Positions 1,768 through 53,721 of a DNA stretch of 64,000 bases are shown in pieces (position 1 is the stretch's first letter; every line of letters begins with the position of its first letter). The notes under the pieces were generated by a model. It was not told the origin of the DNA. It worked only from the letters and a program-made list of their open reading frames with translations, and searched no databases. Both the position numbers and the translations under genes were made by a program. This stretch comes from Actinomycetota bacterium. Lineage in GTDB: Bacteria > Actinomycetota > Nitriliruptoria > Nitriliruptorales > Nitriliruptoraceae. The stretch lies in contig JAHWKY010000024.1 in assembly GCA_019347575.1 (NCBI GenBank), positions 1 through 64,000 of the forward strand. Reading direction: 5' to 3'.

Positions 1768-2981
1768 CACGCCGGCGTGGAGCGTTCTCGGCGGGTCTCC
1801 TCGTGGCACTGGCACTGGGTGCCGAGGTGGCGTTCATCCTGGACTCGGGCCTGGCGGCGGGCGAGAACGGTGGCCCGCCGGCCTTCGTGGAGAGCATCCC
1901 CGGCGTGCTCGGGTTCGGCCTTGTCGGCGCGTACCTCGTGTGGCGCCGCCCCGACCACCGCGTGTCGTGGCTGGTGGCGGGAGTCGGTCTGTTCGAGTCG
2001 ATGGCGGCCTACCTCATCGTGGGAGCGAACTGGTGGCAGGCGCGAGGTGGGTCCGGCGCCGGCGCGTACCTCCTCAACGTCTCCGGCGACATCGCGGTCG
2101 AGATCGGGCTCGTGCTGGGGCTGGTGCTGCTGCCCGTGCTGTTCCCGACTGGCGAGGTGCCCTCGCGGCGGTGGCGTTGGCTGCCGCCGACCGCCCTCAC
2201 GCTGGTCGCGGTCAGTGAGGCCATCATGGTCGTGCTACCGGACGTCCGCGAGATCGCGGGTGTCGAGGTCGCCAACCCGCTCGGCATCGCGGCCCTCCGG
2301 GCACCGCTCGAGTTGGCGGGCGGGCTGACGTTCGGCCTCACGCTGCTCCTCGTCGTCCCGGCTGCGGCCTCCCTGGTGGTGCGCTTCCGTCGCGCTCGCG
2401 GAACCGAGCGGCTCCAGCTGCGCTGGTTCGTCGCGGCGGTGTTGGTCCTGGTCACGGTCGCGGTCACCCTGCTGGTGTGGGCGCTCGCCGCGAACGCCGG
2501 GCTCATCGCCGAGGCGAGCGAGCTCACTTTCGATCTGATAGTGCTGGTCCCGGTCACGGCGATGCCGGTGGCGATCGGCGCCGCGGTGTTGCGGTACCGC
2601 CTGTACGAGGTGGACCGCGTCATCAGCCGCACGGTCTCCTACGGCCTCCTGACCGGAGTGCTCGTGGGCGTGTACGCGCTCGGGGTGCTCGGGGTTGGGG
2701 CGTTCTTGCCCGGCGAGCCCAGCGACCTGCTCGTGGCCGGCTCGACCCTGGTGGTGGCGGCGCTGTTCCGGCCGTTGCGGTCACGCATCCAGACCATCGT
2801 GGACCGGCGCTTCAACCGCTCGCGCTACGACGCCAGGCGGACGATCGAGGCGTTCGGGGCGCGGCTGCGTCACGAGGTCGACCTCGACGAGGTCGCGAAC
2901 GACCTGCGCTCGGCTGCGGCGGAGTCCCTGCAACCGCGCGCGGTGTCGTTGTGGCTCCCTCCCGCGGAGGTGAGGCCCTGA
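1764..2981 (+). CDS. Array membrane protein, copy 3
   Basis: The protein has 405 residues. I chose the GTG at 1764 because it makes the same GTGA overlap with the upstream stop as the other junctions and leaves a short polar tip (VTRRRGAF) before the first membrane helix; a longer frame opens at 1737 inside copy 2. The architecture matches copy 2: variable membrane half, ERLQLRWF linker, then RYRLYEVDRVISRT, the glycine-rich helix, SDLLVAGSTLVVAALFRPL and VDRRFNRSRYDA with a soluble tail ending in LQPRAVSLWL. The C-terminal half is much closer to its neighbours than the N-terminal half. Confidence 0.9.
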   Translation: MTRRRGAFSAGLLVALALGAEVAFILDSGLAAGENGGPPAFVESIPGVLGFGLVGAYLVWRRPDHRVSWLVAGVGLFESMAAYLIVGANWWQARGGSGAGAYLLNVSGDIAVEIGLVLGLVLLPVLFPTGEVPSRRWRWLPPTALTLVAVSEAIMVVLPDVREIAGVEVANPLGIAALRAPLELAGGLTFGLTLLLVVPAAASLVVRFRRARGTERLQLRWFVAAVLVLVTVAVTLLVWALAANAGLIAEASELTFDLIVLVPVTAMPVAIGAAVLRYRLYEVDRVISRTVSYGLLTGVLVGVYALGVLGVGAFLPGEPSDLLVAGSTLVVAALFRPLRSRIQTIVDRRFNRSRYDARRTIEAFGARLRHEVDLDEVANDLRSAAAESLQPRAVSLWLPPAEVRP

Positions 2982-3049
2982 GGTGGAGACCGGTCCCCGC
3001 GTCGCCCGGGCTCCCCGCCCGGATCGCCGGCGCCGGCGCAGTGCCAGAC

Positions 3050-4234
3050 GTGACGGCCGGCAGCGGACGAGGTCGCTGGCTGGGGCTCGGTTCTGCCGTG
3101 CTGGCCCTGGCGATGCTCGCGACAGGGGCGTTCCTTCAACTGACCGCGCCCGCCCACGCGACCGCGGAGCTGACCGTCGGGGATCGTGTCGCGCCGTTGA
3201 CGATGCTGATGTTCGCGGCCGTCGGGGGCGTGCTGGTGTGGCGACGCCCCGAGCACCCCTTCGGGTGGGTGATGGTCGTCTTCGCCGCGCTCCAGGGTCT
3301 CAACGGCACCACCAGCGCTCTGGTCCAGCGTCACACGCCTCCTGCCTCGATCGTTGTCGATGTGGCCAGCTGGGTCCAGTCGTGGATCTGGATCCCGGCC
3401 CTCTCGCTGCTGGCGCTGGGGATCCTGCTGTTCCCCGACGGCCGCCTCCCGTCGCGCCGGTGGCGGCACGTGTTGCGGGTCGAGCTCGTGGGGCTCGTCG
3501 GAGTGGTCGTCCTGGCGGTCGCGCTCTGGCCTCACCGCGGCCCCGACCTCGTGGAGCTCGGGGACGCGTGGCCGGGGTTCGCGGGGCGCGTCGGCAAGAC
3601 CGCCGTGCTGCCGCTCGTCTTCAGCGGTTTCGTGGCCTCCCTCGTCTCGCTCTTCATCCGCTACCGCAACGCGGCGGTGATCGTCCGGCTCCAGCTCAAG
3701 TGGTTGATGCTCGCGGTCACGCTGCTCGGTGTCGCCCTGATCTCCGCCGCCCTCGCGGATGTTCTCGGTTTCGGCGGCCAGTGGTGGCAGGACCTGTTCG
3801 GTGTCGCCGGGCTGTTCTTCCTGCCCGTGGCCATCGGGATCGCGGTGCTGCGCTACCGGCTGCTCGAGATCGAACGGATCCTCAGTCGCACGGTGTCGTA
3901 CCTGCTCCTTACCGGCGTGTTGCTGGGTGTCTACGCCTCGGGAGTGCTCGGGGTCGGGACGTTGCTGCCAGGCGAGTCCAGCGACCTGCTGGTGGCGGGC
4001 TCGACCTTGGCGGTCGCGGCGCTGTTCCGGCCGCTGCGATCGCGCATCCAGTCGATCGTGGACCGGCGTTTCAACCGGGCGCGCTACGACGCATCCCGCA
4101 CGGTCGACGCGTTCGGGGCGCGGCTGCGTGATGAGATCGACCTCTCGACGCTCGCTCGAGATCTCCGCGATGTCGCCGCATCCGCGCTCGAGCCGCGCGC
4201 GATCTCGGTGTGGCTGCGTGAGGTGCCGCGGTGA
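3050..4234 (+). CDS. Array membrane protein, copy 4
   Basis: The protein has about 394 residues. The frame is open much further upstream, but that stretch overlaps copy 3 and reads as arginine- and proline-rich shadow sequence. The start is placed at GTG 3050 (VTAGSGRGRW before the first helix); GTG 3041 is an alternative, and neither has a strong ribosome site. The protein carries the family layout, with a VRLQLKWL linker, RYRLLEIERILSRT in place of the usual RYRLYDID motif, then the shared helix, VDRRFNRARYDA and a tail ending LEPRAISVWL. This is the only junction in the run of six without a GTGA overlap. Confidence 0.85.
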   Translation: MTAGSGRGRWLGLGSAVLALAMLATGAFLQLTAPAHATAELTVGDRVAPLTMLMFAAVGGVLVWRRPEHPFGWVMVVFAALQGLNGTTSALVQRHTPPASIVVDVASWVQSWIWIPALSLLALGILLFPDGRLPSRRWRHVLRVELVGLVGVVVLAVALWPHRGPDLVELGDAWPGFAGRVGKTAVLPLVFSGFVASLVSLFIRYRNAAVIVRLQLKWLMLAVTLLGVALISAALADVLGFGGQWWQDLFGVAGLFFLPVAIGIAVLRYRLLEIERILSRTVSYLLLTGVLLGVYASGVLGVGTLLPGESSDLLVAGSTLAVAALFRPLRSRIQSIVDRRFNRARYDASRTVDAFGARLRDEIDLSTLARDLRDVAASALEPRAISVWLREVPR

Positions 4235-5403
4235 CGACGTCGCACTCGCCGGAGCATCGGAGTCGCTACTGGCCGTGGGTGGTGGCGTTGTCGTTGACCG
4301 CGGTGGCGCTCGGCGGGATCGTCGTCACGGCACGCGACCCGGCGCCTGGGGGGCCGCATCCCGCGAGCACGGTGGTCTCGGTGCTCCTCGTCGTCACGTT
4401 CCTCGGCACCGGTGCGGTCATGCTGTCGCGCCGCCCCGATCACGCCGTCAGCTGGCTGCTGCCACTCCCTGGCGTGTACGTGGCGCTGGATGCGGGGCTC
4501 GATGTCCTCGAGCTGTTCGTCGGTCCGTCCACGGAGCTGTGGCTCGACTGGGTGACGCAGGCGTCCTGGGCGTGGACGTTCCCGACCCTCGCGATCTTCC
4601 TCCCGTTGCTGTTCCCGACCGGGGCACCGCCCACGCCGAGGTGGAGGTGGGTGCTGTGGACCGGGGCGGCGGCCGTCCTCCTCCTGACCACGGGGAACGC
4701 GCTCAACCCTGACCTACTCAAGCCGGCCGCCAACCCCGCGGCGATCGGTGAGGGTGCGGCCGAGGCACTCACCGCCACGGGCGGGGGCCTGCTGTTGCTC
4801 TCGTTCGTGGCCGCAGCGGTGTCCGCGGTCGTGAGGTACCGCCGCTCGAGGGGCGTCGAGCGCCAGCAGCTGCGGTGGTTCGTGCGAGGTGCCGCGATCG
4901 TGCCCTTCGCTTGGATCAACGCCATCGTGCTCGAGCACGGTCCCTACCAGCAGTTCGGAGGCCTCGTCCTGGCGGGCAGCTTGGCCGTGTTGCCGGTCGC
5001 CGTGACCGTCGCCGTCCTGCGGTACCGCCTCTACGACATCGACCGCCTCGTCAGCCGCACGCTGTCGTACGCGTTGCTGTCCGGCGTGCTTGTGGGCGTG
5101 TACGCGCTCGGCGTGCTCGGGGTCGGGGCGCTGCTGCCCGGTGAATCCAGCGACCTGCTGGTGGCGGGCTCGACCTTGGCGGTGGCGGCGTTGTTCCGGC
5201 CACTGCGGTCGCGCATCCAGTCGGTGGTGGACCGGCGCTTCAACCGGTCGCGCTACGACGCGGCGCGGACGATCGAGGCGTTCGGGGCGCGGCTGCGCGA
5301 CGAGGTCGATCTCGGATCGCTGTCGCAGGAACTGCGAGCTGCGGTCGACGTGACGCTCCAGCCGCGGGTCACGTCGCTGTGGCTCCGGGAAGGTGGAGCG
5401 TGA
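4231..5403 (+). CDS. Array membrane protein, copy 5
   Basis: The protein has 390 residues, with a GTG start overlapping the previous stop (GTGA). The N-terminal half holds about six hydrophobic helices, then an ERQQLRWF linker and one more membrane pair. The conserved block follows: RYRLYDIDRLVSRT, VGVYALGVLGVGALLPG, SDLLVAGSTLAVAALFRPL, VDRRFNRSRYDA, IEAFGARLRDEVDL and LQPRVTSLWL. The 3' end is nearly identical at DNA level to copies 2, 3 and 6. Function unknown; the context suggests membrane signalling. Confidence 0.9.
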   Translation: MTTSHSPEHRSRYWPWVVALSLTAVALGGIVVTARDPAPGGPHPASTVVSVLLVVTFLGTGAVMLSRRPDHAVSWLLPLPGVYVALDAGLDVLELFVGPSTELWLDWVTQASWAWTFPTLAIFLPLLFPTGAPPTPRWRWVLWTGAAAVLLLTTGNALNPDLLKPAANPAAIGEGAAEALTATGGGLLLLSFVAAAVSAVVRYRRSRGVERQQLRWFVRGAAIVPFAWINAIVLEHGPYQQFGGLVLAGSLAVLPVAVTVAVLRYRLYDIDRLVSRTLSYALLSGVLVGVYALGVLGVGALLPGESSDLLVAGSTLAVAALFRPLRSRIQSVVDRRFNRSRYDAARTIEAFGARLRDEVDLGSLSQELRAAVDVTLQPRVTSLWLREGGA

Positions 5404-26462: not shown

Positions 26463-27079
26463 TGGCGCGGATACCACGGTCCGGTGTCGCACTCGCGCTC
26501 ACCACGATCGCGGCCTCGGCATCGGCGCTGTGGAGCAAGCGCGCCCACGACCTGGACCGTGAGGTGAGCCGCCGGCTCGCCGCCCCTCGTGGTCACCGCG
26601 CCGACCTCGCGGCCGGCGCCATCACCGACATCGGGTCCGTCTTCGCCGTCACCGGGTCCGCCGCCGTCCTCGCCGCTTCGGGACGGCGCGAAGCCGCGCT
26701 CGAGGTGTTCGGGGCGGGCATGACGGGTTGGACGCTCGCGCAGGCGCTCAAGCCGCTCGCGCGACGCCCACGCCCCTACACGGCCGACGGGATCCACCGG
26801 CTGGTCGCCGAGCCCGCTGGCCTGTCGTGGCCCAGCGGTCACCCCGCCGTGGCCGCCGCCGTCGCGACCGCGCTGGCGTCGCACCTGACACCCGCTGGCC
26901 GGGCCGTGGGAGCAGCGGTGAGCACGACCGTCGCGTACAGCCGCGTGTACGTCGGCGTGCACTACGTCGGCGACGTGCTCGCGGGGCTGGGACTGGGTGT
27001 CCTCAGCGGGATCGTGTGGGGCTGGACCGGACCGGTGCGTCGCCGCTACCTGCGGTGGCCCGGCGCCCGCAGCGCCTGA
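26462..27079 (+). CDS. PAP2 superfamily membrane phosphatase
   Basis: The protein has 205 residues and all three motifs of the acid-phosphatase/lipid phosphatase superfamily: KPLARRPRPY, PSGHP and SRVYVGVHYVGDV, which supply the catalytic histidines. Several membrane helices place the active site at the outer face. It probably removes phosphate from an isoprenoid or glycerolipid phosphate, for example recycling undecaprenyl diphosphate after cell-wall synthesis, but this is inference. The GTG start overlaps the tatB stop by one base. Confidence 0.88.
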   Translation: MARIPRSGVALALTTIAASASALWSKRAHDLDREVSRRLAAPRGHRADLAAGAITDIGSVFAVTGSAAVLAASGRREAALEVFGAGMTGWTLAQALKPLARRPRPYTADGIHRLVAEPAGLSWPSGHPAVAAAVATALASHLTPAGRAVGAAVSTTVAYSRVYVGVHYVGDVLAGLGLGVLSGIVWGWTGPVRRRYLRWPGARSA

Positions 27080-27095
27080 ACCGGCAGGCCGGCGT

Positions 27096-28235
27096 TCAGG
27101 ACACCGCCAGAGGCAGCTTCTTGCCCACCACGGATCGCGCCTTGGCCGCCAACTGCTCGGCGACGCGTCGTAGTGCTTGCGCCGCCGGGACGTCGGGATC
27201 GGACGCCACGAGCGGGATCCCGCTGTCGCTCGCCTCGCGCAGGCGTGGATCGATGGGGATCCGTCCGAGCAGATCGGTGCCGAGCTCCTCGGCCAACGCG
27301 GCCCCACCGCCGGACCCGAACAACTCGTGGGTGCTGCCGCAGTCGGGGCAGGTGAACCCCGCCATGTTCTCGATGACCCCCGTCACGCTCATCCCCGTCT
27401 GCTCGGTGGCGCGCCCCGCTCGCAGCGCCACCTTCTGGGCCGCCTCCTGCGGGGTGGTCACGACCACCATGTCGGCGTCCGGCAGCATCTGTGCCAGCGA
27501 GATCGCGATGTCGCCGGTCCCGGGTGGCAGGTCGCACACGAGGAAGTCGAGGTCGCCCCAGTAGACGTCGCCGAGGAACTGCTGCAGGGCGCGGTGCAGC
27601 ATCGGGCCGCGCCACAGGATCGACCGATCCGGGTCGGTGAAGAACCCGATCGAGATGACCTTGCAGCCATGCGCGTCGTGGGGGAGGACCCGCTTGACGG
27701 GGTTGCCCTGCTCGTCCATGCCGTCGAACACGCGCGGCGAACCGGCGGCACCCATCATGCGAGGGATCGAGTAGCCCCAGATGTCGGCGTCGAGGACCCC
27801 GACCGCGAAGCCCTGCTGCGCCAGGGCGACGGCGAGGTTCACCGTCACCGACGACTTGCCCACGCCGCCCTTGCCGGACGCGACGGCGATGATGCGGGTG
27901 TCGCTGTCAGCACGAGCGAAGGGGTTGTCGGGGGCAGCCGGGGCGCCGGCATCTCGACGCAGTGACTGCGACAGGTCCTGACGCTCCTGCTCGGTCATCG
28001 AGCCGAAGCTGATGCGCACCCCCTCGACGCCCTCGATCGTCGAGACGGCCGCGGTCACGTCGCTCTGGATGCGATCCTTGAGGGGGCAGCCCGGAACGGT
28101 GAGCTTGACCGCGACCGCGACGATGCCATCGGAGATGACGATGTCGTCGACCATGCCGAGGTCCGTGATGGGCTTGCCGATCTCGGGATCGTCGACGGTC
28201 GCCAGAGCTTCGAGGACCTGATCCTTGGTGGGCAC
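27096..28235 (-). CDS. mrp: Mrp/NBP35-type Fe-S cluster carrier ATPase
   Basis: The protein has 379 residues from GTG 28235, which has a GGAG site six bases upstream; the frame continues to 28265. It has an N-terminal DUF59/MIP18 domain (about 1-85) and a P-loop domain with deviant Walker A GKGGVGKSSV, plus CPDC in FTCPDCGSTH for bridging an Fe-S cluster in a dimer. It carries and delivers Fe-S clusters in the cytosol. Mrp lies near sigE/htrA/tatB in mycobacteria too. It is convergent with the PAP2 gene, 16 bases apart. Confidence 0.93.
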   Translation of the reverse strand: MPTKDQVLEALATVDDPEIGKPITDLGMVDDIVISDGIVAVAVKLTVPGCPLKDRIQSDVTAAVSTIEGVEGVRISFGSMTEQERQDLSQSLRRDAGAPAAPDNPFARADSDTRIIAVASGKGGVGKSSVTVNLAVALAQQGFAVGVLDADIWGYSIPRMMGAAGSPRVFDGMDEQGNPVKRVLPHDAHGCKVISIGFFTDPDRSILWRGPMLHRALQQFLGDVYWGDLDFLVCDLPPGTGDIAISLAQMLPDADMVVVTTPQEAAQKVALRAGRATEQTGMSVTGVIENMAGFTCPDCGSTHELFGSGGGAALAEELGTDLLGRIPIDPRLREASDSGIPLVASDPDVPAAQALRRVAEQLAAKARSVVGKKLPLAVS

Positions 28236-28294
28236 GGTGGGCTCCGGAGACAACGGGGGACGCATGGACGGTCGGTTCAGTACCCGACGTGCCG

Positions 28295-28300
28295 AGGGTA
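28295..28300 (-). promoter_or_regulatory. -10 element (TACCCT) of mrp
   Basis: The minus-strand TACCCT hexamer lies about 59 bases before the mrp GTG. Confidence 0.4.
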
Positions 28301-28330
28301 CAGGGGCCGTCCCAACCGTCGCGAAACGCG

Positions 28331-30631
28331 TCAGCGGAGCCGTGAGGCGCGGTGCATAGCCGCCTGTAGACGCGCCCGCAGGACCTCCTCATCGAACGGC
28401 TTCGTGAGGTAGTCATCGACGCCGGCGAGCAGTCCCTCGACCTCGACCTCGGGATCGACGACGCCGGTCAGCATCAGCACCGCGATACCGGAGGTGACCT
28501 CGTCCGCGCGGAGCAACCGGGTCACCTCGATGCCGTCGATGTCCGGGAGCCGGTAGTCGAGGATTATGGCGTCGGGGTTCTCGGACCTGGCGAGCGTCAC
28601 GGCCGACTCGCCGTCCTCGGCCTGGAGCACGACGTGGTCGTCCATCAGCAGCGTCGTGACCAGCTCGCGGAGGGAGGGGTCGTCGTCCACGACGAGGACC
28701 GTCCACTTCGTCCCAGCCGGGGGTCGCTTGCGGGGTGCTGGTGAGGACTCGCCCGTCCGTGCCGACGCGGCCGTGTCGCTGGTCTCGGAACCCGGTGTGC
28801 TACCGGGCTCGACCTTCGGCCCGAAGTCACGTGCCACGGTCACGGTCAGCTCGCCCGGGAGCTGGCCCGGTGCCGGCTGGTCGCCGCTGCCGTCGCCGAC
28901 CTGCTGATCCTCGGGCGTGATCCGCAGGACCTCCTCGAGGGTGGTCAGCCCGTTGTAGGCCTTCAGCAGCGCGTCCTGACGCAGCGTCCGCTGTCCCCGG
29001 TCACGGGCGTACTGGCCGACGGCGGTCTCGGTCCCGTCCTCGACGATCAGGTCGCGGAGGCGGGTGTCGACGGGCAGCATCTCGTACACCCCGAGACGGC
29101 CGCGGTACCCCGATCCGTCGCACAGCTGACAGCCGGCGCCGCGCATGAGCGTGCGTCCGCTGAGCTCGGCACGGTCGAGTCCCAGGTGGCGCAGCGTGCG
29201 CTCGTCGGGCTCGTACGGCTCCTTGCAGTGATCGCACACCACCCGCACGAGGCGCTGGGCGATGACCAGGATGACCGAGGACGCGATCATGAACCGCTCC
29301 ACGCCGAGGTCGTGCAGGCGCACGATGGTCGAGGGAGCGTTGTTCGTGTGGAGCGTGGACAGGACGAGGTGGCCGGTGAACGACGCCTCCATGGCCAGCT
29401 CGGCCGTCTCCTGGTCGCGGATCTCGCCGACCATCACCACGTCGGGATCCTGGCGTAGCACGGTCCGCAACCCGCGCGCGAACGTCAGGCCGATCTTGGG
29501 GTTCACCTGCGTCTGGTTGACGCCCTGGAGCTGGTACTCGATCGGGTCCTCGAGGGTGATGACGTTGCGGACGGGATCGGTCAGCTCGGTCAGCCCGGCG
29601 TAGAGCGTCGTGGTCTTGCCGGAGCCCGTCGGTCCGGTGAGCAGGACCAACCCCTGGGGACGGGCGAGCGCCGACTCGAACAGTTCGCGCGAGTCCGATG
29701 CCAGGCCGAGGTCATCGATGGAGAGGCGCTCCTCGCCCTTGCGCAGCAGCCGCAACACGATGGTCTCGCCGTGCAGCGTCGGCATCGTCGAGACACGCAG
29801 GTCGACCTCGGTGTCCTCGACCCGGATGGCCGAGCGCCCGTCCTGGGGCAACCGACGCTCGGCGATGTCGAGGTTGGCGGTGATCTTGATGCGCGACAGC
29901 AGCGCGGGCCCGAGGCCGCGTGGGATGTCCATCTTCTCGCGCAGCAGCCCGTCGATCCGGTAGCGGACCCGGACGCCGTCACGTTCGGGTTCGATGTGGA
30001 CGTCGCTGGCGCGGGTGCGAACCGCGTCGGCGAGGATGGCGTTGGCCAGGCGCACGATCGGCTGGGCTCCTGCCGTGGCGGAGACGGCGGACAGGTCCTC
30101 GAGGTTGGTCTCCTCGATGGCCGCGACGTCCTCGTGTCCGCCGAGCGAGTCGACGATGTCCAGCGCCGCCTGGTCGGTCCCGAACGCGCGGCGGATGGCG
30201 TCGATCAACTCGCTCTCGGGCGCGACGACCGGGCGGACCGCACGCATCGCGGAGGTCAAGCGGATGTCATCGAGCGCGACCACGTTGGTGGGATCGCTCA
30301 TCGCCACCACGAGGACGTCGAGATCCTCGATGCGCAGAGGCAGAACCTGATGGCGTTCCGCGAGCTTGCGCGGGACCCGCTGGAGGGCGGCGGGCTCCGG
30401 TCCCTGCGCCGTCAGGTCGACCGTGTCGTAGCCGAGCTGGGTCGCCAGCGCGTGAGCGATGTCATCCTCGGTCGCCAGCGCCAGCGAGACGATGACCGTG
30501 CCCAGCCTGGCCCGTCGGCCGTCCCCTCGCTGGGCCTCGAGCGCCTCGATGAGCTGGGACTTGGAGATGACCCCGGCCTCCACGAGGATCTCGCCGATGC
30601 GGCGGCGGGCCTGGTCGTCGGTACGCGCCAC
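28331..30631 (-). CDS. PilB/GspE-type assembly ATPase fused to a response-regulator receiver domain
   Basis: The protein has 766 residues. An MshEN-like N-terminus (about 8-150: RIGEILVEAGVISKSQLIEA, EAQ, then RLGTVIVSLALATEDDIA) precedes the secretion ATPase. Walker A is at 333-341 (GPTGSGKTT), Walker B carries E403 (VVMVGEIRD), and the zinc cysteines are C466/C469/C501/C504. A disordered linker (about 575-640) leads to a complete receiver domain (643-766) with D649/D650, phospho-acceptor D692 (LDYRLPD), T722 and K744. It should power type IV pilus or type II-like assembly, with phosphorylation control added in cis. GTG 30631 is chosen for its spacing to GGAGGAG. No other pilus gene is in the window. 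Confidence 0.92.
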   Translation of the reverse strand: MARTDDQARRRIGEILVEAGVISKSQLIEALEAQRGDGRRARLGTVIVSLALATEDDIAHALATQLGYDTVDLTAQGPEPAALQRVPRKLAERHQVLPLRIEDLDVLVVAMSDPTNVVALDDIRLTSAMRAVRPVVAPESELIDAIRRAFGTDQAALDIVDSLGGHEDVAAIEETNLEDLSAVSATAGAQPIVRLANAILADAVRTRASDVHIEPERDGVRVRYRIDGLLREKMDIPRGLGPALLSRIKITANLDIAERRLPQDGRSAIRVEDTEVDLRVSTMPTLHGETIVLRLLRKGEERLSIDDLGLASDSRELFESALARPQGLVLLTGPTGSGKTTTLYAGLTELTDPVRNVITLEDPIEYQLQGVNQTQVNPKIGLTFARGLRTVLRQDPDVVMVGEIRDQETAELAMEASFTGHLVLSTLHTNNAPSTIVRLHDLGVERFMIASSVILVIAQRLVRVVCDHCKEPYEPDERTLRHLGLDRAELSGRTLMRGAGCQLCDGSGYRGRLGVYEMLPVDTRLRDLIVEDGTETAVGQYARDRGQRTLRQDALLKAYNGLTTLEEVLRITPEDQQVGDGSGDQPAPGQLPGELTVTVARDFGPKVEPGSTPGSETSDTAASARTGESSPAPRKRPPAGTKWTVLVVDDDPSLRELVTTLLMDDHVVLQAEDGESAVTLARSENPDAIILDYRLPDIDGIEVTRLLRADEVTSGIAVLMLTGVVDPEVEVEGLLAGVDDYLTKPFDEEVLRARLQAAMHRASRLR

Positions 30632-48759: not shown

Positions 48760-48776
48760 GCGGGGAAGGGAGGTTG

Positions 48777-51700
48777 GTGCTGGACGCCACGCCGGATCCG
48801 CGTGGCTCGCCGGTGTCTGTTGGACGAGGCGCCGGTAGAGCGGCACGGCTCGTCGCCGTGCTGTTCATCTGTGCCTTGAACGTGGCCCTGCTGGTCCCCA
48901 CTGCCACGGCCGCCCCGGTCACCTACTTCCGCACCGGTGCCTCGGCCGGGGTGGCCTCCTACTCGCGACTCGACACCGCGCCGGCGACGAGCTCCTTCGT
49001 GACCAGCATCGACCACGGGAGCGCCACCGGGTCGTTCCTGTTCCAGCCGGGCCGCAGCGGCACGGCCACGACCGGGTTCCCAGGACCGTCGGGAACGGGC
49101 TTCGGGTACGCGACCACGGGGAACCTCAACGGGACCGTTCCGGCAGGGACGTGGTCGGTCAACGCCACGGTGACCACCGACGTGCCCGCGACTGACGCGA
49201 CCGGCAACATCCTGGTCGCGTACTACGCCGTCCGGTCCGACGGCTCGTCGAGGCGCATCCACGTCCAGCAAGGCACGAGCAACGTCCTGAGCGGGCCGGG
49301 GACGAGGACCACAACCGTGAGCACCGCGCTGCCCGCGATCGCGTTCTCGAACGAGCGGCTCGCGGTCGAGCTCTACCTCGTGATCAGCCGCAACGAGGCG
49401 TCTGGCTCGACCGTGTGGCGGACGTCGCTGCGTCACGGCGATGCCGGCGACACCGTCATCGTCCCGGGACCTCCCACGGCTCCCGACCTAGCCCCCCCGG
49501 GGACGCTCCAGGTCACCTCCGTCGGCGACAACCGCATCGGACTCGCGTGGGGGGCCTCGAGCGATAGCCGCGTCGCCGGCTACGTCGTGCAACGGGCCAC
49601 GTCGTCCGCGGGGCCGTGGACGGACGTGACCGGGGTCATCGGTGGGACCTCCCACACCGACACCGGCCTGAACAACGGCACGCGCTACTACCATCGGGTC
49701 GTCGCGGTCGATGCGGCGGGGACGCGCTCACCCCCGTCGAACAGCACCAGTTCGGTTCCCGCGGATGTCGACGCCCCCGGTGCTCCGGGCAGCATCAGCG
49801 TCTCTCCTGCCGGCTCCTTCCGGCTCCAGGTGTCCTGGGCACCGTCCTCGGCGGGGGACATCGCGGGGTACGAGATCCAGCGGGCTGGGTCGGCGGCGGG
49901 TCCCTTCTCCCGCATCGCGGGCCCCGTCGGCGGCACCAGCTTCACCAACGACGGGCTACCGTCGGGCAGCACGTGGTACTACCGCGTCATCGCGATCGAT
50001 GACGACGGTCTGCGATCGGCTCCGACCGCCCCGGCCGCGGGGACGGTCGCTCCGTCGCCACCCAGTGGCCTGCGGGTCGTCGCGGTCGCCGACCGATCGG
50101 TCGCCCTGGCCTGGAACGGCACCGCCGAGGCCGTCACCCGCTACGTCGTGGAACGATCGACCTCGTCGGGTGGGCCCTTCGCCGTTGTCGGCGCCACCGG
50201 TGGTCTGTCGTTCACGGATGGAGGGCTGGTCAACGGCACGACCTACTACTACCGCGTCCGTGCCGAGGACGCCGCCGGTGCGAGTTCGTCACCGTCCGCG
50301 ACGGTGTCGGCGGTGCCGAAGGACACCGGCATCCCCGCCCCGCCGACCACGCTCGTCGCGGTGCCTCAGGCGGGATCGAAGGTCCGGCTCGACTGGGGTC
50401 CGAGCCCGTCGGCCTCCACGGTCGGCTACCGCGTGTACCGCTCCACCGGTGGCTCGTTCACCGACATCTCCGGACGCATCGGCGGTCGCTCCTTCATCGA
50501 TGGCCCACTGCCGGTCGGCGTTCCACACCGCTACCACGTGCGTGCCGAGGATGCCTCGGGCACGCAGTCGATCCCCTCGACCGAGGCCGCGTACACCGTG
50601 CCCCCCTCCGCACCCGGGAACCTGCGGGTCACGGCGGTCAGCGAGTCCACCGCCTCGCTGGAGTGGAACGCCAGCAACGACCCCCGCGCCGGTTACCGCG
50701 TCCTGCGCAGCACCAGTCCCGGAGGGCCTTACTCGCCGGTATCGGGGAAGGTCTCCGGGACCACGTTCACCGATGCCGGGTTGGTGCTGGGGACGTCGTA
50801 CTTCTACGTCGTGCAGGCGGAGTCGGTCGACGGCACCCGATCGGCCCCCTCCAACGAGGTCCGGGTGGTGCCGGTCAACGGTCCCCCGACGCCGCCCTCG
50901 GGTCTACGCGTCTCGGATACCACCTCGGGCGGGGAACTCCGCGTGACGTGGGCGGCGAACCCCGAGCCGGACATCGCCAGATACGTGGTGCAGCGCGCCA
51001 CCAGCGCGTCCGGTCCGTGGGGGGAGATATCGACCACGACGTCGACGACGATCCTCGATGGCGGTCTCCTCGACGGGACCCGCTACCACTACCGGGTGAT
51101 CGCCGTCGACACGGTCGGTCTGCGGTCGTCTCCATCCGCCGTCGCGTCCGGGGTCCCGTCGGACACCACCCCACCGAGTGCCCCCAGCCGTCCTGTCGTG
51201 AGCCAGTCGGGGCTCGACCTGCGGGTGCAGTGGGCGGCGTCCGAGGGAGCGGTCCGCTACCGCGTGCTGCGCACGACCAACAGCGGCGGCCCCTACGCGG
51301 TCCTGGGCGAGGTCAGCGGCGCGCGGACGTTCACCGATACCGGCGTGGCGCGAGGCGTGGCGTACTACTACACGGTCGTTGCCATCGACGCGTCCGGGAA
51401 CGAGTCGCCGCCGTCGGCCGAGAGCCTGGCTGCGGTCGTCCCGCTCGGCCTGCCCTCCCCGCCACCCAGTGGGGGGACGGGTGGCGGGACCACCGGCGGC
51501 ACCGGTGGAGGTACTGGCGGAACCGGTGGACCGTTCGGTGACGGCGGGCCCGTCGCAGGTGGCCCGACCACCCCTCCGTCGCCGTCGACCGGCCTGCCGC
51601 CTGGTGCACTGGGTGGGGGGGATACTCCCGGGGCCGCCACCGGCGACCAGGACGGTGATGGGGACGGCGACGGCGACGGCGACGACGAGGGGCGGACCCC

Positions 51701-51995
51701 CATCGCCGCTGGACAGATCCCCGGCGACGCTCTCGGTGACAGCGGACTCCCACCGCTGAGCGCAGCCGACGAGGCGCTGCGATCGGGCCGTTTCAGCGAC
51801 GCGCTGTCAGGCACGGCCGCCGAGGTCGCCGAGGACATCGGTACGGTGGCCCGGACCTTCCGTATCCCCCTCATCGTGCTCGCCGTTCTGCTCATCTACC
51901 TGATCGTCCAGGGGAGGTTGGACCGCACCACCCTGCCCATGACCGTCGAGACACCAACCGGAACCGCTGATGACGACGATGAGTACATCCTCTGA
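48777..51995 (+). CDS. Seven-repeat fibronectin type III surface protein, C-terminally membrane-anchored
   Basis: The protein has 1072 residues from GTG 48777, five bases after GGGAAGGGAGG. A signal peptide (RLVAVLFICALNVALLVPTA region, about 20-45) precedes a beta-sandwich domain (about 47-225). Seven FN3 domains follow (about 235-880), each with a W near strand B and an RYYHRVVAVDAAG-like strand. A glycine/threonine-rich spacer with an (DG)n acidic run leads to a membrane helix (about 1030-1050) and a short acidic cytoplasmic tail. There is no LPXTG motif. It is probably an adhesin or stalk. The cyclase gene overlaps its last 26 bases, linking surface display to c-di-GMP. Confidence 0.85.
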   Translation: MLDATPDPRGSPVSVGRGAGRAARLVAVLFICALNVALLVPTATAAPVTYFRTGASAGVASYSRLDTAPATSSFVTSIDHGSATGSFLFQPGRSGTATTGFPGPSGTGFGYATTGNLNGTVPAGTWSVNATVTTDVPATDATGNILVAYYAVRSDGSSRRIHVQQGTSNVLSGPGTRTTTVSTALPAIAFSNERLAVELYLVISRNEASGSTVWRTSLRHGDAGDTVIVPGPPTAPDLAPPGTLQVTSVGDNRIGLAWGASSDSRVAGYVVQRATSSAGPWTDVTGVIGGTSHTDTGLNNGTRYYHRVVAVDAAGTRSPPSNSTSSVPADVDAPGAPGSISVSPAGSFRLQVSWAPSSAGDIAGYEIQRAGSAAGPFSRIAGPVGGTSFTNDGLPSGSTWYYRVIAIDDDGLRSAPTAPAAGTVAPSPPSGLRVVAVADRSVALAWNGTAEAVTRYVVERSTSSGGPFAVVGATGGLSFTDGGLVNGTTYYYRVRAEDAAGASSSPSATVSAVPKDTGIPAPPTTLVAVPQAGSKVRLDWGPSPSASTVGYRVYRSTGGSFTDISGRIGGRSFIDGPLPVGVPHRYHVRAEDASGTQSIPSTEAAYTVPPSAPGNLRVTAVSESTASLEWNASNDPRAGYRVLRSTSPGGPYSPVSGKVSGTTFTDAGLVLGTSYFYVVQAESVDGTRSAPSNEVRVVPVNGPPTPPSGLRVSDTTSGGELRVTWAANPEPDIARYVVQRATSASGPWGEISTTTSTTILDGGLLDGTRYHYRVIAVDTVGLRSSPSAVASGVPSDTTPPSAPSRPVVSQSGLDLRVQWAASEGAVRYRVLRTTNSGGPYAVLGEVSGARTFTDTGVARGVAYYYTVVAIDASGNESPPSAESLAAVVPLGLPSPPPSGGTGGGTTGGTGGGTGGTGGPFGDGGPVAGGPTTPPSPSTGLPPGALGGGDTPGAATGDQDGDGDGDGDGDDEGRTPIAAGQIPGDALGDSGLPPLSAADEALRSGRFSDALSGTAAEVAEDIGTVARTFRIPLIVLAVLLIYLIVQGRLDRTTLPMTVETPTGTADDDDEYIL

Positions 51996-53721
51996 CGCCG
52001 ATCGGCTCCGGGGACCGCTGAACGAGCGGCTCCGGACCATGACGATCGCGCGGATCGTCATCGTCCTGGCGACGATCGTGGCTCTCGCGCCCATCACGGA
52101 CTACACCGACGACCGCTCCGGTCAGATCCTCGCCCTGGCCAGCGCCGGCTACCTGCTGCTCAACGGCGTGATCTTCGCGGCGCTCCGCGGCCTGCCGAGC
52201 GTCGGGCGTCCGGTCCTCAACGCGTCCCTGCTCGCCGACGCGGTCTGGGCGGCCGCGGTGCTGTGGTACACGGGCAGCACGGCCAGCCCGCTCATCTTCC
52301 TGATGTACGTCCAGAGCGTCACCGTCACCGTGCTCTTCGGGTGGCGGACCGGCGTGAAGCTGGCCATCCTGCACACCGCCGGGCTCCTCGCCAACGCCTA
52401 CGGTCAGTCCCAGGGGCTGGGGCCGGAGGCCGGCGAGGTCGGCTTCACGATCGGCTTCTTCAACCTCCAGATCGAGGACCCGACGCGGGGTGCGCAGTTC
52501 ATCCGCGTCCAGATCGTCGTCTCGATCGTGACCGTGTGGCTGATGGCCGGCGCCACGGCGTACTTCTCGGCCGTCCGCGAACGCGAGCTGCGCCGGACCA
52601 ACCAGGAGCTCTCCGTCCTGCGCGAGCTCAACACCCAGCTCGAACGCAGCCTCGACCTCTCCGATGTCTGCCAGGCGATCGCGACCGGTGTCGTCGATGA
52701 GCTGAGCTACGACCGCGCCGTCGTGTGGATGGCGCAGGGAGGCAGCGACCTCGGCCCCGCCGGAGCGGCCGGCTTCGCGCCCGACGAGGTCGAGCTGCTG
52801 TCCGCGCTGCGCCTCACCGTCGGGCCCGGCCCCGTCGGTCGTGCGGTCGAGTCACGGCGCCCCGTCCTGGTCGCGCGCGAGCATGCCCGACCCGCCGCTC
52901 TCGCGGACGCCTTCGAGATCGACAGTCCCCTCGTCCTCGTCCCGCTCACCACGGAGGGGCGCGTGCTGGGCCTGCTCGCGGTCGAGGTGGGCCAGCCGCT
53001 GGGCCGCGCCCCGCGCGTCAGCGGCCGCGACCTGCGCATCCTCGCCACGCTCGCCACCGAGGCATCGCTCGCCCTCGACAACGCCCGGCTCCACGCCGAG
53101 CTACGTGACCTGTCCGTGACCGACGCCCTCACCGGCGTCTACAACCACCGCTACTTCCAGCAGCGACTGCAAGAGGAGCTCGACCGCTCGGTCCGACGGG
53201 CGGGTGGCGGTGCACCGGAGCCGGTCAGCCTCATCCTGATGGACCTCGACCTGTTCAAGAAGGTCAACGACCGCTTCGGCCACCAGGCCGGCGACGAGCT
53301 GCTGAAGGGGCTCGCCCGGCTCATCGAGCGCGTGCTGCGCTCGTCCGACGTCGTGTGCCGCTACGGAGGGGAGGAGTTCGCGATCATCCTGCCCGAGACG
53401 ACGCCGGACCAGGCACGCCAGGTGGCCGAGCGCATGCGTGAGGCGATCGAACGCTCGAACTTCACCGCGTCCGACGGTCGCTACCTCGGCCAGGTGACGG
53501 GCTCGTTCGGCGTCGCGACCTACGAATCCGGCCTGCCGTCACGCGGCGACCTGATCCGCGAGGCCGACGAGGCGCTCTACCGCGGGAAGGCGGCGGGGCG
53601 CAACGCCGTCGTGGTCCGCGACGAGGTGGTCCCCGTCACCTTCGGGATCGGCCGCAGGCTCGATGCCGGGCGCGACGACGAGCCCCTCGCTGACATCGCC
53701 CGGGTGCCGCACCGCAGCTAG
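51970..53721 (+). CDS. Membrane GAF-GGDEF diguanylate cyclase
   Basis: The protein has 583 residues from ATG 51970 (ATG 51979 is possible). About five membrane helices lie within 20-205, then a coiled-coil linker (RELRRTNQELSVLRELNTQL), a GAF domain (about 225-375) and a GGDEF domain (about 385-560). The active site YGGEEF is intact at about 466-470, and RSSD five residues upstream is the product-inhibition I-site. It should make c-di-GMP from GTP. The gene overlaps the FN3 protein, so the two are coupled. Confidence 0.93.
   Translation: MTTMSTSSDADRLRGPLNERLRTMTIARIVIVLATIVALAPITDYTDDRSGQILALASAGYLLLNGVIFAALRGLPSVGRPVLNASLLADAVWAAAVLWYTGSTASPLIFLMYVQSVTVTVLFGWRTGVKLAILHTAGLLANAYGQSQGLGPEAGEVGFTIGFFNLQIEDPTRGAQFIRVQIVVSIVTVWLMAGATAYFSAVRERELRRTNQELSVLRELNTQLERSLDLSDVCQAIATGVVDELSYDRAVVWMAQGGSDLGPAGAAGFAPDEVELLSALRLTVGPGPVGRAVESRRPVLVAREHARPAALADAFEIDSPLVLVPLTTEGRVLGLLAVEVGQPLGRAPRVSGRDLRILATLATEASLALDNARLHAELRDLSVTDALTGVYNHRYFQQRLQEELDRSVRRAGGGAPEPVSLILMDLDLFKKVNDRFGHQAGDELLKGLARLIERVLRSSDVVCRYGGEEFAIILPETTPDQARQVAERMREAIERSNFTASDGRYLGQVTGSFGVATYESGLPSRGDLIREADEALYRGKAAGRNAVVVRDEVVPVTFGIGRRLDAGRDDEPLADIARVPHRS

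Follow-up and report, generated by a model that had tools for sequence, protein, structure and literature searches.

The window analysed here, a stretch of 64,000 nucleotides from a draft actinomycetotal genome (98.8% complete, 120 contigs), encodes a stand-alone PilB-type ATPase that ends in a receiver (REC) domain. Its open reading frame runs on the minus strand from 30631 to 28331 and specifies 766 amino acids. It opens with a GTG codon at 30631, with GGAGGAG upstream, and closes with a stop codon at 28333-28331. An earlier note on this DNA had placed the gene at the right coordinates but the strand has to be corrected: translation assigns it to the minus strand, and the plus strand of 28331-30631 is broken by stop codons. 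The features of the locus are as follows.

27096..28265, minus strand: Mrp/ApbC-type Fe-S carrier ATPase, the downstream neighbour across a 65-bp gap; conserved, also in L064 and L213
28331..30631, minus strand: stand-alone PilB-type ATPase with C-terminal receiver, 766 aa (translation, Pfam, residue check, orthologs)
28367..28699, minus strand: receiver (Response_reg, residues 645-755, E 2.6e-26; Pfam, residue check, AlphaFold model)
28733..28900, minus strand: disordered linker, residues 578-633 (pLDDT <50); most REC-bearing orthologs have a DZR there (ortholog comparison)
28922..30073, minus strand: T2SSE ATPase domain, residues 187-570 (Pfam, E 2.5e-136; model pLDDT mostly >85)
29120..29236, minus strand: tetracysteine zinc motif, CxxC at residues 466-469 and 501-504 (residue check; invariant in the ortholog alignment)
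29612..29635, minus strand: Walker A motif GPTGSGKT, residues 333-340 (exact residue check)
30170..30436, minus strand: MshEN Pfam match, residues 66-154 (E 4e-21)
30437..30508, minus strand: MshEN c-di-GMP motif II, residues 42-65, with Gly replaced by Ala and a 7-residue spacer instead of 5 (compared with the motif of PMC5013675)
30530..30601, minus strand: MshEN c-di-GMP motif I, residues 11-34, near-perfect (compared with the motif of PMC5013675)
31502..32383, minus strand: orf293, the conserved upstream neighbour, with a weak PPOX/F420 oxidoreductase (Rv3369-like) match (neighbourhood comparison)

The protein proved to be the complete fusion that the earlier note had described. The catalytic and zinc residues of the ATPase are all present, with Walker A and both CxxC pairs where they had been placed, and an exact residue check of the receiver recovered the acidic residues D649, D650 and D651, the phospho-acceptor aspartate D692, T722 and K744. 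The AlphaFold model of the 766-residue protein has a mean pLDDT of 85.1; the receiver is well folded (pLDDT ~95+), and residues 578-633, between it and the ATPase, are disordered. Pfam matches and orthologs together establish that the joining of a PilB/GspE-type ATPase to an intact receiver is real and conserved.

The description of this protein as a pilus or secretion ATPase holds for its PilB/GspE-type core, but it is distinct from the PilB of the genome's pil operon, which sits on contig C17. The window ATPase scores under the cut-offs of the PilB equivalog model TIGR02538 (614.3 versus 675.65 bits), the GspE model TIGR02533 (588.4 versus 630.25 bits) and the TfpB model NF053534 (454.6 versus 850 bits). 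The best solved-structure matches, to PilB/PilF, span residues ~8-575. With the solved PilB proteins (Thermus PilF, 6f8l; Geobacter PilB, 5tsg/5tsh), the window protein shares the MshEN/N1D and T2SSE core, the Walker A and catalytic motifs and the zinc tetracysteine. It differs from canonical PilB in belonging to a separate clade and in being encoded away from the pilC/pilT operon. In a quick tree search under LG+G4, the stand-alone ATPases came out as a single clade (37 rows, SH-aLRT 99) and were separated from the canonical PilBs of actinobacteria, the C17 copy among them. Members of this clade can bear a REC or DZR-REC tail, and they mostly keep the c-di-GMP-contacting arginines that have gone from nearly all canonical PilBs examined in the class.

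Clade members vary at the C terminus, where orthologs have no tail, a DZR (the Pfam double zinc ribbon), DZR-REC, linker-REC as in the window, or long tails. Of 66 class genomes, nine have REC-bearing copies (G000, which contains the window, and G017, G039, G041, G042, G045, G047, G032 and G052), those of G042 and G045 being partial or broken matches. These nine genomes span three families, and class orthologs with the ATPase-REC fusion are syntenic. Absence of the fusion from all close relatives, which the earlier note had named as a possible refutation, is thereby excluded. Beyond the class, a draw of 246 genomes from the phylum yielded two proteins (G108, G254) whose alignment reaches the DZR-REC model's end and one with the linker-REC form (G077). 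Among the matches listed, which provided a sample of at least 80 related loci, further families of the phylum have REC-bearing orthologs (L211, L212, L214 and L064). The last of these, from a MAG annotated as Frankiaceae, is a DZR-REC form at the base of the clade, with its DZR just under the Pfam cut-off. The kinship to L064, together with the gene content, agrees with an actinomycetotal origin of the window. Many sister orthologs lack a REC, so that, as judged from sequence comparison, the clade can do without the receiver. MshEN-T2SSE-DZR-REC is likely to have been the ancestral form of the clade, followed by repeated losses, with the window copy having lost the DZR.

In the REC tree, the window receiver and that of G017, its closest ATPase relative, group firmly (99/95), and the class receivers fall with that of L064 on one side of a weak branch (75/92), one long-branch row included. 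Where the site of a class receiver is intact, Asp, Thr/Ser and Lys are all present. Retention of these residues in a fusion this old suggests selection for phosphotransfer. Fusions of REC to an MshEN-T2SSE ATPase in a single frame were also found in L065 (a Deltaproteobacteria MAG), L088 (an Omnitrophota MAG) and L139. Their receivers lie outside the class side of the tree, again with weak support (75/92), and their positions suggest that the REC-ATPases of other phyla are separate fusions. The ATPase-REC fusion is thus found repeatedly within the clade and seems to have arisen independently in other phyla. The L139 protein (2914-5346, plus strand; Deltaproteobacteria MAG) has the reversed order, with an N-terminal REC followed by MshEN-T2SSE and then a DZR.

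Two further peculiarities were seen among the stand-alone motors. Tandem copies occur in G032 (L017/L146) and G052 (L147/L186), one with an intact REC and the other with a degenerate REC without Asp, Thr and Lys. Frame breaks near residue 250 affect L185 (near 10854; G040) and L189 (near 8079; G045). A programmed frameshift was considered for these breaks and rejected, as the two lesions differ at the base level; error or mutational decay is likelier.

The N terminus resembles the c-di-GMP-binding MshEN domain, as the earlier note had proposed, and most residues of the c-di-GMP motifs are kept; its view that the second half is degenerate was overstated. Motif I, RIGEILVEAGVISKSQLIEALEAQ, matches the published 24-residue motif except for Leu to Ile at position 2. 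Motif II, RLGTVIVSLALATEDDIAHALATQ, retains RLG, the second Leu and the Gln; it departs from the published motif at position 10 (Ala instead of Gly), position 12 (Ala) and position 17 (Ile instead of Leu). The contact positions read R11, I12, G13, L27, L31 and Q34 in the first motif and R42, L43, G44, I58, L62 and Q65 in the second, with conservative changes only. The window protein thus has the two-motif pattern of an MshEN receptor (R, L, G ... L, L, Q). Like MshE/MshEN (5htl, matched at E 4.4e-16), it has two 24-residue motifs, here nearly complete; unlike MshE, it has substitutions in motif II and seven residues between the motifs rather than five. We consider c-di-GMP binding by this domain plausible.

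Across the stand-alone clade, the two contact arginines are mostly kept, whereas in nearly all in-class canonical PilBs examined they are replaced by Gln, Ser or other residues. Most of the clade has lost the motif I Gln, which the window protein, G017 and L064 keep. The idea that presence of a REC tracks an intact MshEN motif is borne out by the window and G017 inside their own family but fails for the REC-bearers of other families, and was dropped. The genome has 13 GGDEF matches over the cut-off. One GAF-GGDEF diguanylate cyclase is encoded in the window itself (51970-53721, plus strand), ~21 kb from the ATPase gene, and is adjoined by a gene whose 1073-aa product contains five fibronectin type III stretches (48774-51995, plus strand).

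The surroundings of the ATPase gene are conserved in their own right. Most class neighbourhoods examined share the order orf293 - ATPase - mrp, which is partially preserved in L064 and L213 from other families of the phylum. A convergent PAP2/tatA/htrA run accompanies it across the class and, to some extent, outside it. The PPOX/F420 oxidoreductase match of orf293 is confined to its C-terminal half. Neither pilC nor a pilin gene stands beside the stand-alone ATPase in any of the 18 neighbourhoods examined. No kinase gene is adjacent to it or among the window proteins scanned; HisKA_3 kinases are encoded elsewhere in the genome, none of them linked to the REC-ATPase gene.

The canonical operon on C17 begins with roadblock-like, DUF4388-like and small GTPase-like genes and continues with pilB, pilT and pilC, then a pilin gene, pilD, pilM, pilN and pilO, some of these names having been assigned by reading the sequences. 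It contains the only two-domain PilC of the genome; the remaining T2SSF matches are weak. The C17 PilT (26960-28552; L038) has an N-terminal extension like MshEN motif I (GLGEILVQQGVIDEGQL). A second, stand-alone PilT is encoded on contig C11 (45420-46451; L173) in a conserved cluster near cca-like and Ser/Thr kinase-like genes, which also includes thioredoxin and thioredoxin reductase genes. Nearly every relative has a PilT that falls in the same score class.

We hold it somewhat more probable than an even chance that the window ATPase is a second extension motor of the type IV pilus, which we label PilB2, with its receiver acting as a phospho-switch. A natural replacement bears on the pilus part of this reading. 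In G026, alaS, yqgF, mltG, aroE, pilT and pilC are contiguous on a 610-kb contig that has no pilB, and the sole PilB-type match of that genome at E<=1e-60 is an intact stand-alone ATPase. This arrangement speaks for a pilus role of the clade, though it falls short of proof. The G026 motor lacks both the DZR and the REC, and the similar pil locus of G040, also without pilB, is accompanied by a frame-broken stand-alone copy, so the natural replacement is not directly informative about the REC form.

The strongest competing explanation is that the ATPase serves outside type IV pili, in another envelope process or in cytoplasmic signalling, and that the receiver controls that process. We regard this as unlikely, although the gene's constant location beside mrp and the F420/PPOX-like gene, away from pilC and pilins, does speak for it. 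So, at first sight, does the recovery of the ATPase from several fragmented genomes without pilus genes: at least seven genomes with a stand-alone ATPase gave no PilC, PilM or PilD match. When the flanks were followed, these apparently pilus-less genomes were largely explained by assembly gaps, with contigs that stop inside canonical pilB (G019, G021) or at aroE just upstream (G007, G008). The argument that the ATPase persists in pilus-less genomes, and hence is no pilus motor, was therefore withdrawn where the upstream flank could be traced, and for those genomes it is void in both directions because their contigs end in pilB or at aroE. In G018, ~3 kb beyond aroE contain no pil gene match. 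The intact pil locus of G026 without its own pilB argues further against a role outside pili.

A second alternative accepts the extension motor but treats the receiver as a module that serves constitutively for docking or localisation, or as a phosphate sink, with no phospho-switch. The REC of FimX, which lacks the Asp, still affects pilus localisation (PMC11656802), one tandem copy in G032 and G052 has lost its Asp, Thr and Lys, and the linker is disordered, all of which would suit such a module. We nevertheless judge it distinctly improbable, because the window receiver and those of the main lineage have kept their phosphorylation residues over long divergence. An assembly or frame artefact that joins separate ATPase and response regulator genes is a negligible prospect: the copies of G040 and G045 do break near residue 250, but nothing of the kind affects the window gene, whose single uninterrupted frame is repeated in orthologs of independent genomes and whose receiver has the same closest relative as its ATPase.

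For a second extension motor gated by phosphorylation, we envisage the following sequence of events. The ATPase hexamer would dock where canonical PilB otherwise does, on the one PilC platform of the cell, and drive pilin polymerisation. Two inputs would converge on this stand-alone motor, c-di-GMP through the N-terminal MshEN domain and phosphorylation through the C-terminal receiver. A histidine kinase encoded elsewhere would phosphorylate the receiver, which, in whichever direction the effect runs, may then alter the recruitment, pairing or activity of the hexamer. Recruitment or REC dimerisation is more likely than rigid allostery in the light of the predicted structure, because the ~56-residue linker is disordered and flexible.

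TfpB of Acinetobacter baylyi offers the closest functional parallel: its gene lies apart from the pilBC operon and specifies a second motor for extension, and tfpB without pilB is described for one Pseudomonas (PMC8213720). The stand-alone ATPase is likewise a second PilB homolog in a distinct clade, away from pilC and alongside pilB, with rare pilB-less cases. This is a resemblance in how the systems may work and not membership: the families differ, TfpB is gammaproteobacterial, and a REC tail on TfpB goes unmentioned in the available portion of that paper (PMC8213720). By this analogy, the window protein is best read as a second extension motor that functions like TfpB, is regulated, and receives an unusual input through its REC. 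Control by c-di-GMP has its own precedent in PilB2 of Clostridium perfringens, an extension ATPase whose MshEN binds c-di-GMP (as reviewed in PMC11656802). That protein is from a different phylum and, unlike the window ATPase, is accompanied by no mention of a receiver in the review text available (PMC11656802). The association of MshEN with REC and other domains was noted in 2016, the accessible part of that paper specifying no MshEN-T2SSE-REC protein (PMC5013675). What is known already is therefore MshEN with REC; a PilB-type motor with a REC tail is new with respect to the open-access literature, in which we found no paper on one (subscription journals and preprints lie outside this scope).

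The same fusion is common to relatives across the class and occurs elsewhere in the phylum, and it is therefore probably an old route by which phosphorylation, and perhaps c-di-GMP, may act directly on a pilus motor. A broader proposal, which we put forward as tentative and rather doubtful, is that part of the phylum has an ancient second motor that combines MshEN c-di-GMP sensing and REC phosphorelay in one polypeptide, that the pil-operon PilB has lost c-di-GMP sensing, and that a constitutive and a signal-gated motor share one PilC.

In most accounts, regulators distinct from the motor (FimX, PilZ, PilG/PilH) govern pilus extension, or else c-di-GMP acts on PilB. In the available text of a 2024 review of PilB control, REC is mentioned in FimX only (PMC11656802). 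With a receiver on the motor itself, a two-component signal would arrive straight at the hexamer. The idea of two motors, known for Acinetobacter, would also reach a distant phylum, with an ancient origin, and the arrangement would suggest that the motors divide the signal input between them.
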